Of a stretch of DNA of 64,000 nucleotides, positions 29,600 to 37,689 are shown piece after piece; within the stretch, counting starts at the first letter, position 1, and each line of letters starts with the position of its first letter. Origin of the DNA: Demequina lutea (GTDB lineage: Bacteria > Actinomycetota > Actinomycetes > Actinomycetales > Demequinaceae); NCBI RefSeq assembly GCF_013409005.1, contig NZ_JACBZO010000001.1, forward strand, positions 1,612,001 to 1,676,000, written 5' to 3'. The position numbers were made by a program, and so were the translations under genes. The notes beneath the pieces were generated by a model. That model searched no databases, was not told where the DNA came from, and was given only the letters and a program-made list of their open reading frames with translations.

Positions 29600-29642
29600 G
29601 TCGGGCTGACAGGATTTGAACCTGCGACCCCTTGACCCCCAG
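29600..29642. repeat. attL, 43-bp attachment repeat
   Basis: Identical to 37647-37689 over 43 bp, and equal to the 3' half of tRNA-Pro including the anticodon-loop G run. Beyond base 29642 the sequence departs from the tRNA. A hairpin CACGGG-TACG-CCCGTG follows at 29651-29666. Confidence 0.92.
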
Positions 29643-29738
29643 GCATCGGCCACGGGTACGCCCGTGTTCACCGTTGTCCGTTCTCCCTGGTAAATGGCAT
29701 TCGCGAACATCTGCGGACAGCCACGGACAATCAAAAAG

Positions 29739-29760
29739 TGGTTCAAAAAGTGGTTCAAAC
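29739..29760. repeat. 22-bp inner direct repeat, left copy (possible integrase arm site)
   Basis: Identical to 37556-37577 and in the same orientation, 97 bp inside attL. It consists of two TGGTTCAAA units, and together with upstream bases it forms a 12-bp tandem (TCAAAAAGTGGT from 29731). Such paired repeats near both att sites are typical of integrase arm-binding sites. Confidence 0.6.
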
Positions 29761-29771
29761 ATGGAGGAATG

Positions 29772-30275
29772 ATGAGTATCTCAGCAGACAAGATGAAGGA
29801 CGCCCCGGCTTGGGCAACGCGTTACGAGACGACGGATGACGAGAGCGGCGGATGGTTCGCACGCGACCTCACCAAGCCCACCACCATCGCCACGGCGACG
29901 GGCTCGCAGACTGGGCGGGCTCAACTGATCCTCGATAGCGGGAACGTCTATGTGGTCGATAACGCCACGGACCAGCAATGGTCCAACCCTGGGCAGATGC
30001 GCATGCTTGCGGCGCACTTGCTCAACGCGGCCGACGCTTGGGACGAACTACGCACGGCTGCACTCAACACGGGCTTCGTGGAGAACCTCAACCGCTGCAT
30101 GACTGCCGCCGACGTGGACGTGGCGGGACTTGCGGACCGGACAGAGATTCCGGTGGCGAGGCTCGAAGCGATCCTTAGCGGCAAGGCAGAGGTGGGCATG
30201 GCCGAGTTGGTCATGTTCGCCGAAGCGCTCGACGTGAGCCCGTCCGAGTTACTGCCCACACCGCGCGACGTGTAG
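29772..30275 (+). CDS. XRE-family regulator of the satellite
   Basis: The 167-residue protein has an N-terminal part of about 100 residues without known domain (it includes ESGGWFARDLTKP and QLILDSGNVYVVDNATDQ) and a C-terminal helix-turn-helix of Cro/XRE type (LADRTEIPVARLEAILSGKAE followed by VGMAELVMFAEALDVSPSELL). ATG 29772 is chosen over the adjacent ATG 29769 because the GGAGGA site ends directly before the latter. It is the only plus-strand gene at the left end and is followed by a terminator. It is a candidate master repressor, to be relieved by a helper phage product. Confidence 0.78.
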   Translation: MSISADKMKDAPAWATRYETTDDESGGWFARDLTKPTTIATATGSQTGRAQLILDSGNVYVVDNATDQQWSNPGQMRMLAAHLLNAADAWDELRTAALNTGFVENLNRCMTAADVDVAGLADRTEIPVARLEAILSGKAEVGMAELVMFAEALDVSPSELLPTPRDV

Positions 30276-30293
30276 CACTCGCTCACACACTGG

Positions 30294-30324
30294 CGCCCCG
30301 CCTGGCCTCGTGCTCGGCGGGGCG
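30294..30324 (+). terminator. terminator of the XRE gene
   Basis: CGCCCCGCC (30294-30302) pairs exactly with GGCGGGGCG (30316-30324), followed by TTGT, 19 bp after the stop codon. Confidence 0.75.
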
Positions 30325-30638
30325 TTGTCATACGCAAACGGCCTCGCACAGATCCGTCTCAGAGGGGTCAATCCATCATGAAACAGGATCACCCCGGTAC
30401 ACCATGAAGGGAATGGCCTTTCCCCCCCCGACCTCTTAGGGGGGTACCCGCGCGCAGGATGAAGCCGCCCCCGCCGTGCCGTAACGCAGTGAAGGCCCGC
30501 CCCGAAGCCTAGGGGCGGGCCTTACTGTTTCGCGCAGGTGAGGTCATCGGCCAGAAAGGGTGCCTCGCTCACCTTCGATTCCGTAGGTCCCGGCTGTTTT
30601 AAGACATGCTGGCCGGGCGGTGACGTTGACGCGGGGTC
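30325..30638. other. gene-free, highly structured segment between convergent genes
   Basis: The segment holds a C6/G6 hairpin (30426-30431 with 30441-30446), flanked by GGTAC/GTACC, and a 12-bp perfect stem AAGGCCCGCCCC/GGGGCGGGCCTT (30492-30503 with 30512-30523) followed by ACTGTTT. The second is a likely plus-strand terminator. No coding frame has a convincing start. It could hold a small RNA or a packaging site; neither is shown. Confidence 0.5.
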
Positions 30639-35753: not shown

Positions 35754-35775
35754 TAGTCTCACGGAGGTACGGTTA

Positions 35776-36378
35776 ATGGCACCAGGAATGTGGATGACGA
35801 CTGAGACACCGTTCGGCACGCTCAAATACGACCTAGCGAAGCCAATGGTCATCGTTGGCGACAGGGCCGTCCCGCCCCTGCTTGAGGTTGAGTTCCAAGG
35901 TGTCGATGGGCAACCGGCGTTCGAAGGTCGCATCGAGGTCATCTCGGGCGTGCCGCGTTGGACCGATGTGCGCGTCTATCGCGTGCCTGACGGCCGAGAG
36001 GTCAAACAGAAAGACCTGCGGGCGATTCGCTTGGACGACTGGCTGGAGTCCTTCATTACCGTCATGTCGTTCAAAGTCACCGAACGCAATGGCGGCAAGT
36101 GGGCCGCAGTTTCGAGTGACACGGACGTAGATATTCGAGAGGGGATGCGCTCGATAAGTCGGTCCAGGAGGGGCGAGCGCAGACGAATCACCGGGGTGCT
36201 CAAGGCGCGCATCGCCGAGATATACGAGGCGCACGATTCCGGCGGTATTGAAGCCGTCGCGACCGCGTTCAACGTCTCCAAGTCCACCGCGATTCGGTAC
36301 ATCAACGAGGCCACTGCAGACGGACTCATCACGTCGCGCCCACGCCAGTCAACGGGCCAAAAACGTCGGGAGGCGTGA
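35776..36378 (+). CDS. unknown protein with C-terminal HTH
   Basis: The 200-residue protein (ATG 35776, GGAGGT site) has an N-terminal beta-rich region of about 110 residues (KPMVIVGDRAVPPLLEVEF, FEGRIEVISGVPRW) and a C-terminal helix-turn-helix (ARIAEIYEAHDSGGIEAVA, TAFNVSKSTAIRYINEAT). The same N-terminal arrangement is often annotated as hypothetical in actinobacterial elements. It precedes the integrase by 3 bp and is probably a DNA-binding regulator of the element. Confidence 0.7.
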   Translation: MAPGMWMTTETPFGTLKYDLAKPMVIVGDRAVPPLLEVEFQGVDGQPAFEGRIEVISGVPRWTDVRVYRVPDGREVKQKDLRAIRLDDWLESFITVMSFKVTERNGGKWAAVSSDTDVDIREGMRSISRSRRGERRRITGVLKARIAEIYEAHDSGGIEAVATAFNVSKSTAIRYINEATADGLITSRPRQSTGQKRREA

Positions 36379-36381
36379 GCA

Positions 36382-37587
36382 ATGGCTGACAAGTACGCAA
36401 ACGGGCGCACCCGCTCATCCAAGCCTTACAGGCTCGCGGATGGTCGCTGGGGTGCCAAGGTGTCCTACAGGGACGAGTGGGGCCAGATTCAGCGGGTCGC
36501 GGTCTATGCCCCTAATGAACTTGAAATCGGCGACAGGGTTGACGAGGTGCGTCGGCGTCTCGGCGAAGGGTTGCCCGCGTCGGATGACGGCGCGACTGTT
36601 GCCCAAGTCACGGCGCTATGGCTGACCACCGGGCTCGAGTCCGAGGATCGCAAGGCCTCGACCAAAGCGACGTATTCGACGCTCGCACGCAAGCACATCG
36701 TGGGACGGGCGATAGGCGGCGTGTCCCTCAAGGCACTCAAGCCCGCGACCATTCAGGCGTGGCTTGTGGAGATGCGCCGCGCCGGGCTGGCTCCGTCGAC
36801 CGCGCGACAGACGTTCACAGTGCTCAAGATGGTGCTCCGCTTCGCGCAGCGAAACGACATGATCGCACGCAACCCCGCAGATGCCGTAGAGCGGCCCAGG
36901 GTGGCCCATAGAGAGGCCGCATACCTCTCCCCGACCGATGTTCAACGGTTGCTAGGGGCGGCGTCCTCGTCGCGATATGCGCCATTGTTCGAGCTACTTG
37001 TGAACACCGGTCTGCGGCGCGGTGAGGCGCTCGCGCTGATGTGGCGCGATATCGACTTGGACGAGCGAACGTTGCGAGTGCGAGGCACCTTGACACGTGT
37101 CGACGGGGATCTAGTCGTGACAGACACTAAGACGGCGAAGTCTCGGCGCGTGGTTCACGTCTCCCCCACTGTGGAACGCATCCTCAAGGGCCTCAAGGCT
37201 CGCCAGGCCGCCGAACGTCTCGCATCGGGGTCCGTGTGGCACCAAACGGGCTACGTGTTCACGACGGAGTTCGGAGAGCCAAGCGACCCCCGCAACGCGC
37301 TCCGGGCGATCACAGTCGCGGCCAAGAAAGTCGGGCTGGGGGGCGTCGGGCTTCACACGCTGCGCCATAGCGCGGCCTCCGTGATGCTCACGAATGGCGT
37401 GCCGCTCAAGGTGGTGTCTGAGGTGCTCGGTCACTCATCGGTGGCGATCACGGGCGACGTCTACGGGCATGTGGCGCCGGACATCGCAGCGGATGCGCTG
37501 GACAGGCTTGGGGGCGCTCTCTCGCTCCCGGATATGGCCCTAGGAGGTGAAAACCTGGTTCAAAAAGTGGTTCAAACTCAACAATGA
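36382..37587 (+). CDS. int: tyrosine-recombinase integrase of the satellite
   Basis: The 401-residue protein has an arm-binding N-terminal region (DGRWGAKVSYRDEWGQIQ), a core-binding SAM-like domain (TYSTLARKHIVGRAIGGVSL) and a catalytic domain with Arg in NTGLRRGEAL, His-x-x-Arg in HTLRHSAA, LGHSS and the nucleophile Tyr in ITGDVYGH. All catalytic residues are present. The last codons lie within the 22-bp inner repeat. It lies 60 bp from attR in tRNA-Pro, the usual placement for this class. Confidence 0.95.
   Translation: MADKYANGRTRSSKPYRLADGRWGAKVSYRDEWGQIQRVAVYAPNELEIGDRVDEVRRRLGEGLPASDDGATVAQVTALWLTTGLESEDRKASTKATYSTLARKHIVGRAIGGVSLKALKPATIQAWLVEMRRAGLAPSTARQTFTVLKMVLRFAQRNDMIARNPADAVERPRVAHREAAYLSPTDVQRLLGAASSSRYAPLFELLVNTGLRRGEALALMWRDIDLDERTLRVRGTLTRVDGDLVVTDTKTAKSRRVVHVSPTVERILKGLKARQAAERLASGSVWHQTGYVFTTEFGEPSDPRNALRAITVAAKKVGLGGVGLHTLRHSAASVMLTNGVPLKVVSEVLGHSSVAITGDVYGHVAPDIAADALDRLGGALSLPDMALGGENLVQKVVQTQQ
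37556..37577. repeat. 22-bp inner direct repeat, right copy
   Basis: An exact copy of 29739-29760, embedded in the 3' end of the integrase gene and 69 bp before attR. Being both coding and a likely binding site would constrain the integrase C-terminus. Confidence 0.6.
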
Positions 37588-37595
37588 CAAAGCAA

Positions 37596-37627
37596 GAGGC
37601 CGCCCCGCCAAGTGGCGAAACGGCCTC
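37596..37627. terminator. hairpin between integrase and tRNA-Pro
   Basis: GAGGCCG (37596-37602) pairs with CGGCCTC (37621-37627) around an inner CGCCA/TGGCG stem. On the minus strand it is followed by TTGCTTTGT, so it can replace the terminator the tRNA lost on integration; on the plus strand it closes the integrase unit. Confidence 0.6.
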
Positions 37628-37646
37628 ATACCAGGAGATTTACTTG

Positions 37647-37689
37647 GTCGGGCTGACAGGATTTGAACCTGCGACCCCTTGACCCCCAG
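37647..37689. repeat. attR, 43-bp attachment repeat inside tRNA-Pro
   Basis: It matches attL exactly and restores the 3' half of the tRNA gene, so integration leaves tRNA-Pro functional. Confidence 0.92.

Follow-up and report, generated by a model that had tools for sequence, protein, structure and literature searches.

The window analysed here is a 64-kb stretch (64,000 nucleotides) of the actinomycete Demequina lutea, contig NZ_JACBZO010000001.1, and its positions 29600-37689 hold a small island, integrated in a tRNA-Pro gene, that encodes a phage major capsid protein (MCP) and a small terminase subunit (TerS). The length of the island, 8,047 bp, is the spacing of the two identical 43-bp repeats that form its attachment (att) sites. 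Its features, including open reading frames (ORFs) named by length in amino acids (aa), are as follows.

29600-29642, no strand: left att copy, 43 bp, identical to 37647-37689
29694-30275, plus strand: HTH_26 (helix-turn-helix) regulator, 193 aa, probable repressor (PF13443 1.2e-6, phrog_4583 1e-8)
29738-29759, plus strand: two tandem GTGGTTCAAA repeats, probable arm-binding sites of the integrase
30639-32144, minus strand: HK97-fold MCP, 501 aa (PF05065 4e-33, phrog_10 1e-41, TIGR01554 3e-30, above cut-off)
31320-31649, minus strand: E-loop insert of the MCP, 110 residues (166-275), from alignment to relatives
32416-32628, minus strand: small ORF, 70 aa, doubtful (low GC at third codon positions, GC3), no family match
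32595-32858, minus strand: small ORF, 87 aa, no family match
32855-33310, minus strand: P27-family TerS, 151 aa (PF05119 2e-14, phrog_83 3e-17, TIGR01558 above cut-off)
33543-33872, minus strand: WhiB-like regulator, 109 aa (PF02467 2.5e-14)
33854-35056, minus strand: DUF3631 ATPase, 400 aa, probable replication protein (PF12307 9e-58)
35053-35415, minus strand: ORF, 120 aa, no family match, with related ORFs in sister islands
35412-35942, minus strand: excisionase-like HTH_17 protein, start uncertain (PF12728 1e-6, phrog_66 1e-3, TIGR01764 'excise' 1e-4, below cut-off)
35776-36378, plus strand: possible HTH regulator, 200 aa, directly before the integrase gene (weak GntR and phrog_20952 matches, below Pfam cut-off)
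36382-37587, plus strand: tyrosine integrase, 401 aa (PF00589 3e-26, phrog_1 1e-73)
37556-37576, plus strand: two TGGTTCAAA repeats of the right arm, probably bound by the integrase
37645-37721, minus strand: tRNA-Pro (GGG), the integration site (ARAGORN and Rfam RF00005)
37647-37689, no strand: right att copy, 43 bp, within the 3' part of tRNA-Pro

The minus-strand block runs from the excisionase-like gene through the 120-aa ORF, the DUF3631 ATPase, WhiB, TerS, the 87-aa ORF and the doubtful 70-aa ORF to the MCP, with start/stop overlaps at several joints, and the plus strand carries the HTH_26 protein, the possible second regulator (200 aa) and the tyrosine integrase. These family matches confirm the inventory that an earlier note had read from the letters alone (att repeats, integrase, excisionase-like protein, ATPase, WhiB, P27 TerS and HK97 MCP), and its placement of the island in tRNA-Pro is borne out by the identical repeat copies, the right one lying inside tRNA-Pro(GGG). 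Both the MCP and TerS are full-length family members. Every island ORF longer than 166 aa is assigned, and the mechanical ORFs in other frames (up to 166 aa) overlap assigned genes. Because no unassigned ORF exceeds 166 aa, the large terminase subunit (TerL), portal and tape measure protein (TMP) are absent from the island, and Pfam, PHROG and TIGRFAM-type scans of the island proteins matched no protease, lysis or tail family, in agreement with the earlier statement that TerL, portal, protease and tail genes are lacking. A small connector-type protein may be encoded among the 120-, 87- and 70-aa ORFs. The island has the genes of phage-inducible chromosomal islands (PICIs) in the broad sense, namely an integrase, excisionase and regulators, a probable replication gene and a packaging redirection gene, with no recognised lysis or tail gene. 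The combination of protease, portal, connectors and TerL that marks capsid-forming PICIs (cf-PICIs) is not found in 29600-37689, nor are the TerL, portal, tail and lysis modules of a complete prophage.

We consider it likely that the island is an integrated, helper-dependent phage satellite that replaces the head subunit and the packaging recognition of its helper. It is probably not a decayed prophage, as judged from sequence comparison, because independent islands carry like gene sets, their capsid lineages cluster, the ends are intact and the chassis of integrase and replication genes is conserved. The earlier note had proposed a stripped variant of capsid-encoding satellites that takes portal, motor and tail from a helper; a compact TerS and MCP satellite without TerL or portal stands, and the helper's contribution is what we infer from it. 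The strongest rival explanations are that the island is an HK97-type prophage, now inert, that has lost its TerL, portal, protease, tail and lysis genes, which we regard as unlikely, and that its virion parts poison a helper without being used.

We searched for islands of like kind starting from both the capsid protein and the ATPase. Of 396 genomes of the order scanned for the MCP, 30 gave a match. In 8 of the 20 loci fetched from these, TerL and portal matches accompany the MCP, in 10 both are missing, and the remaining 2 match the insert alone. Both TerL and portal were matched in 50 of the 80 contigs with MCP relatives, which, together with the MCP and TerS being phage genes, speaks for decay. 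The alignment search with the ATPase took the best 80 of 526 relatives in named genomes and 48 IMG/VR loci, 5 of them already in the set. In all, 167 loci were annotated with hidden Markov models (HMMs) built in this analysis; these were partly built from the loci they annotate, so that their E-values are inflated, and PHROG and Pfam checks cover part of the genes. Among 149 ATPase ORFs, 13 are accompanied by an MCP with TerL and/or portal, 13 by an MCP with neither of these (window included), 5 by a tape measure gene without TerL or portal, 5 by TerS only, 5 by TerL or portal without MCP, and 108 by no virion gene found, where some absences may be truncation, as 44 of the 149 lie on contigs with less than 6.5 kb of room. 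PHROG tape measure genes were found later at L178 (counted as TerS only) and at L105 and L109 (counted as MCP). An integrase lies directly downstream of the ATPase in 63 of the 108 virion-less loci, 44 of these from Streptomyces, and we presume that such ATPase-integrase loci (L119 and many of L125-L180, mostly Streptomyces) may be actinomycete integrative conjugative elements.

Att-bounded islands in which an ATPase 59-67% identical to that of the window is accompanied by an MCP module without TerL or portal occur in further Actinomycetota as well as in a Gammaproteobacterium and a member of the Parvularculaceae. In total, 11 repeat-bounded islands, ranging from 8.0 to 9.8 kb, carry an MCP without any TerL or portal match, 7 of them with a DUF3631 ATPase (MAG, metagenome-assembled genome).

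Window: 8,047 bp, DUF3631 ATPase
L048: 8,043 bp, AAA_25 protein
L049: 8,061 bp, protein related to the AAA_25 protein of L048
L118 (Gammaproteobacteria): 8,195 bp, TerS, protease (HMM), MCP
L103 (Nanopelagicales MAG, tRNA-Val): 8,309 bp, integrase, ATPase, MCP, TerS; no TerL, portal or protease match
L104 (Actinomycetota): 8,457 bp, 320-bp repeats at 91%; TerS, protease (HMM), MCP
L109 (Parvularculaceae MAG), 7085-15872: 8,743 bp, MCP, tape measure, probable TerS
L356 (same genome as the window): 8,854 bp, replication-initiator-like protein
L039: 9,529 bp, DUF3987
L105 (Mycobacterium asiaticum), 7480-17164: 9,659 bp, MCP, tape measure
L183 (IMG/VR): 9,534 or 9,811 bp, TerS, protease (HMM), MCP

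This strict count excludes L094, where a neighbouring protein of 367 aa weakly matches portal, L168, where the MCP match overlaps a longer opposite ORF, and L044, which has two large accessory ORFs outside the family search. A constant length of 8.05 kb, as in the window, L048 and L049, was considered and rejected, since the further islands spread over the whole range. The WhiB-like ORF of L103 gave no significant match. An alphaproteobacterial MAG (L106) holds TerS, a PHROG-confirmed protease and MCP, with no bounding repeats in the stretch taken and no integrase match. The recurrence of such reduced gene sets in att-bounded islands across several phyla argues against decay.

Other combinations of virion genes were also found. 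Five loci have TerS and a tape measure gene beside a DUF3631 ATPase and no MCP, portal or TerL match, with both genes identified by PHROG in L083 (3166-7566) and L095 (12048-15346), by HMM in L190 (3607-6930) and L196 (7333-11293), and the tape measure by PHROG and TerS by HMM in L178 (12443-15410). Sets like those of cf-PICIs (MCP, protease, portal) lie on the same ATPase chassis in L075, L079, L191-L195, L182 and L116, and TerL is present too, except on the short contigs L192 and L195. Bounded islands that combine TerL, portal and MCP number six and measure 9,827-10,906 bp. The presence of complete head sets on the same chassis is a point in favour of decay. A serine-recombinase match and an MCP, with no TerL or portal match, were found in L038, L040, L042 and L045, which we take to be a phiRv1-like layout; L038 and L040 have primase-type genes, and a Mg-chelatase/ComM-like gene adjoins L040.

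The genome of the window harbors two further islands. A second capsid-bearing island (L356, contig 1 at about 1,388,240-1,397,112; C1:1384000-1403500, 4241-13113), on which the earlier note was silent, encodes an integrase, a replication-initiator-like protein, a WhiB 64% identical to that of the window, an MCP and a tape measure protein, and is bounded by 19-bp repeats 8,854 bp apart, one at an ORF end, with no tRNA. The third (L080, C1:2222000-2241000, about 7500-12300) lies beside tmRNA and has an integrase, WhiB and an ATPase 90% identical to that of the window, with no capsid match; it is probably a decayed remnant, and one of its short ORFs looks to us like a piece of an insertion sequence transposase. 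The window WhiB is 59-64% identical to those of these two islands and 62% to that of L101.

We then compared the trees of the capsid proteins and the ATPases. In a careful capsid tree of 53 rows (with L356 added and 11 rows removed, 5 of them long-branch TerL-less rows), the MCPs of TerL-less loci (20 rows) cluster, with 6 label changes against a shuffled mean of 16.4 and 0 of 500 shuffles as low, and a quick tree of all 63 rows gives 7 changes against 18.5. This clustering, which argues against decay, suggests that TerL-less capsid genes have long been resident in satellites. The window MCP joins that of L105 at 98/96. The phage rows, 14 in number, were taken from the 80 MCPs closest to that of the window, a choice that partly accounts for their own clustering. 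The MCPs of two TerL-less loci, L183 and L106, lie among those of full sets, and that of a third, L034, is nested inside prophage MCPs, so this locus may be just such a remnant as the decay explanation supposes.

In a quick ATPase tree of 82 rows, the window ATPase groups with those of L080 and L101 at 100. The label for full sets is clustered on this tree (7 changes vs 12.3 shuffled), as is that for tape measure (4 vs 5.9), and MCP-type modules look to be exchanged over the ATPase chassis, full sets less so. The ATPase is under purifying selection, as its ratios of nonsynonymous to synonymous substitution (dN/dS) of ~0.06 against L101 and ~0.10 against L080 indicate, and these values also count against decay; the WhiB ratios are ~0.31 and ~0.25, respectively, and dS is near or above 1 in 3 of the 4 ATPase and WhiB pairs. 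Its nearest named relative is 89% identical and comes from a Demequina MAG. The ORFs, att sites and arm repeats of the window island are all intact, and no relic of a further phage gene was recognised in it by family scans, a state at odds with a decaying prophage.

The other strong rival, a mobile anti-phage island in which the MCP and TerS (or the tape measure protein of relatives) act as dominant-negative decoys and which spreads by rare transduction or conjugation, we judge improbable. It would account for relatives that carry one to three virion subunits (TerS with MCP, MCP with TMP, TerS with TMP) setting head, tail or packaging, and for a WhiB common to all three islands of the genome. 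However, same-chassis islands with full head sets point to the making of particles, island lengths of 8.0-9.8 kb agree with a limit set by packaging, and the 7 island proteins scanned matched no defence family.

Several observations weigh against the satellite reading itself. By path length, phage MCPs are about as near to the window MCP as is that of L105. The nearest chassis, L101 and L080, are without MCP and the 'MCP' label is unclustered on the ATPase tree (its 11 rows need 11 changes, no fewer than under shuffling), from which it appears that virion parts turn over fast. Neither the MCP (nearest relative 36% identical) nor TerS has close relatives, so selection on either could not be estimated. 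Finally, helper use, excision, particles and transfer are read from genes, and single virion subunits could poison a helper.

The capsid protein is distinct from those around it. It had no match in 46 other genomes of the family, and single-protein scans confirmed no close relative of it in IMG/VR and GTDB genomes, nor of TerS in IMG/VR. The identity of 36% to its nearest relative holds over the core and rises to 39% in the best local segment; among named phages, the best-ranked MCPs are those of Microbacterium phages of the Dismas group (35% over half of the protein). The TerS relatives in phage records are likewise distant, the best among the matches listed being 36% identical and from Mycobacterium abscessus prophages. 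Over residues 1-65 the MCP shares 51% identity with the N-terminal part of the L265 MCP, which is encoded on a contig with matches to TerL, portal, protease, adaptor and tape measure. In HK97, such N-terminal helices are a built-in scaffold that is removed by the protease. As no protease was recognised in the island, either a helper protease must act or the N-terminal domain of the MCP stays.

A second peculiarity, not mentioned in the earlier note, is the insert of 110 residues (166-275), whose placement in the E-loop comes from alignment rather than from a model. It is absent from 76 of 76 relatives aligning across the junction (of 80), which have at most 7 extra residues there, and the window MCP alone among 49 MCP ORFs has an insert of at least 25 residues relative to the family HMM. 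The insert matches parts of two other proteins of the order (L012 and L017; 1e-12 and 4e-9) and phrog_19622 (1e-7), and its weak matches to solved structures are immunoglobulin (Ig) and fibronectin-III (Fn3) domains, so it is possibly a fibronectin-III/Ig-like domain. When folded alone it reached a predicted local distance difference test score (pLDDT) of 37, and this model was not used. The capsid structure prediction that the earlier note had called for was made with AlphaFold, with a mean pLDDT of 58.5 and 69-86 in blocks from residue 301 onward; residues 62-266 of the model are unreliable, as MAFFT misplaced the E-loop around the insert. The model core matches HK97 gp5 best (1ohg, E 1.6e-23), with the capsid of the cf-PICI EcCI2 at 2.7e-14. 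That the MCP is a domesticated, encapsulin-like compartment with TerS as a passenger we regard as barely credible: its match to encapsulin family 3 (NF041188) is expected from the shared HK97 fold and, at 34 bits, is far below the cut-off of 180, and the protein has phage-like N-terminal helices, lies near no recognised cargo gene and, across islands from several phyla, is linked to an integrase and TerS.

Under the satellite reading, growth in the cell of a tailed phage with an HK97-type head would lead the island to excise, and the DUF3631 ATPase would copy the excised DNA. The island MCP would then assemble with the portal of the helper into a shell suited to 8 kb; by rough volume scaling, 8-10 kb fits a shell of triangulation number T=3 to a small T=4. 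A helper protease would process the MCP, a step invoked because the MCP keeps a delta-like N-terminus. The island TerS would dock on the TerL of the helper and steer packaging to satellite DNA, and helper connectors and tail would complete the particle.

Staphylococcus aureus pathogenicity islands (SaPIs) carry an integrase and regulators and no tail or lysis genes, and they remodel the capsid of the helper without bringing a capsid gene. The window island shares TerS, integrase and regulators with SaPIs and other classical PICIs but, unlike them, brings its own capsid gene. In the classical TerS-encoding elements, TerS is described as redirecting packaging to satellite DNA (PMC10690885). The cf-PICIs are described as encoding MCP, protease, portal, connectors, TerS and TerL (PMC10690885, PMC11389934) and as taking tails from the helper. 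The window island resembles these in its satellite-encoded capsid protein and its own packaging recognition but, as far as those accounts describe them, differs in having MCP and TerS only, so that it would need motor and portal of the helper too. The contrast with cf-PICIs drawn in the earlier note holds in that their defining full head set is absent here, though relatives of the same ATPase carry such sets. The Streptomyces satellites MulchRoom and MiniFlayer are reported to have their own capsid gene plus TerL, portal, scaffold and adapter and no recognisable primase (PMC10690885); like them, the window island is actinobacterial and has its own capsid gene, but it is without TerL and portal.

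The closest published kind that we found are regions of Mycobacterium with integration machinery and an MCP, phiRv1 and phiRv2 included, termed 'candidate PICIs' (PMC10654092), and the window island is thus not a lone oddity. According to that report, they often lie in tRNA genes, some have terminase, scaffold or helicase genes, and their induction by phage is not yet demonstrated; its main text does not mention tape measure or protease. The window island is like them in being small, in having an integrase and MCP and in its tRNA site, and differs from them, as there described, in adding a P27 TerS, a DUF3631 ATPase, WhiB and the E-loop insert, and in lying outside Mycobacterium. Among the papers listed by our literature searches, none describes a TerS and MCP or MCP and tape measure satellite in its title or abstract opening.

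With slightly more doubt than belief, we propose that the window island belongs to a cross-phylum class of 'part-swapping' satellites, in which an interchangeable integrase and replication chassis carries selected virion subunits and in which the E-loop insert may force a small shell. The subunits would be substituted into the assembly of the helper, the MCP as head subunit, the TMP as tail ruler and TerS as packaging selector. The similar reduced elements in unrelated bacteria look like a stable way of life rather than broken prophages. Known satellites either reshape the helper capsid or come with a complete head and motor, and islands that swap only the shell protein (or the tail ruler) and the packaging selector would be intermediate. 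If so, a foreign MCP can be built onto the portal and motor of another phage, a compatibility that is directly testable, and solitary 'phage major capsid' genes, now taken for prophage debris in genomes, would be explained.

The earlier note had suggested looking for a helper prophage with matching portal and TerL. The genome of the window gave no match to the portal family PF04860 or the TerL family PF03354, the only two families searched (controls positive), and PF04860 was found in 9 of 47 genomes of the family. Neither the phage relatives of TerS and MCP nor these searches indicate a specific helper.

The tRNA-Pro gene is a shared integration hotspot in the genus, as indicated by comparison of the site in relatives. 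Its flank was matched in 44 of 44 genus genomes searched, and 11 loci were fetched, 5 (L254-L258) with two repeat copies around other islands and 6 (L259-L264) with one. The islands of the former are ~5 to 16 kb and none has an MCP match; the large ORFs of L257 may be a restriction-modification set. Five of the latter are 19.5-kb stretches with a single copy (up to 8 mismatches), and because more than 18 kb is clear on the 3' side of the tRNA we read them as empty sites; L264 ends at a contig edge and was excluded from this count. The integrase of the window island is 44% identical to that of L044, itself in the same tRNA-Pro. Copies of GTGGTTCAAA or TGGTTCAAA lie close to both ends of the window island, and as the 3 occurrences of GTGGTTCAAA in the 64-kb window are each at an island end, these repeats are probable arm-binding sites of the integrase.

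The 120-aa ORF has 32-39% identity over ~66 residues to ORFs of L101 and L080. Among the loci surveyed, we rejected a circular L104, whose ends are its 320-bp repeats (91% identity), and a repeat unit in L200, where the repeat is formed by two tape measure genes with piecewise similarity of 82-91%; a 'minor tail protein' of L082 may instead be TerS (PF25673 3e-4, below cut-off). By kilobase steps, GC is 0.60-0.65 within the window island and 0.65-0.67 in most steps outside. The MCP has a GC3 of 0.85 against 0.64-0.77 in the other island genes, the doubtful 70-aa ORF excepted, which may reflect a different origin or tuning of expression. Scans for sigma-70 promoters and terminators gave a yield no higher than chance. 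A GC-rich hairpin at 30492-30530, seen by eye and not by the terminator scan, lies between the converging HTH_26 and MCP genes and is a possible two-way terminator.

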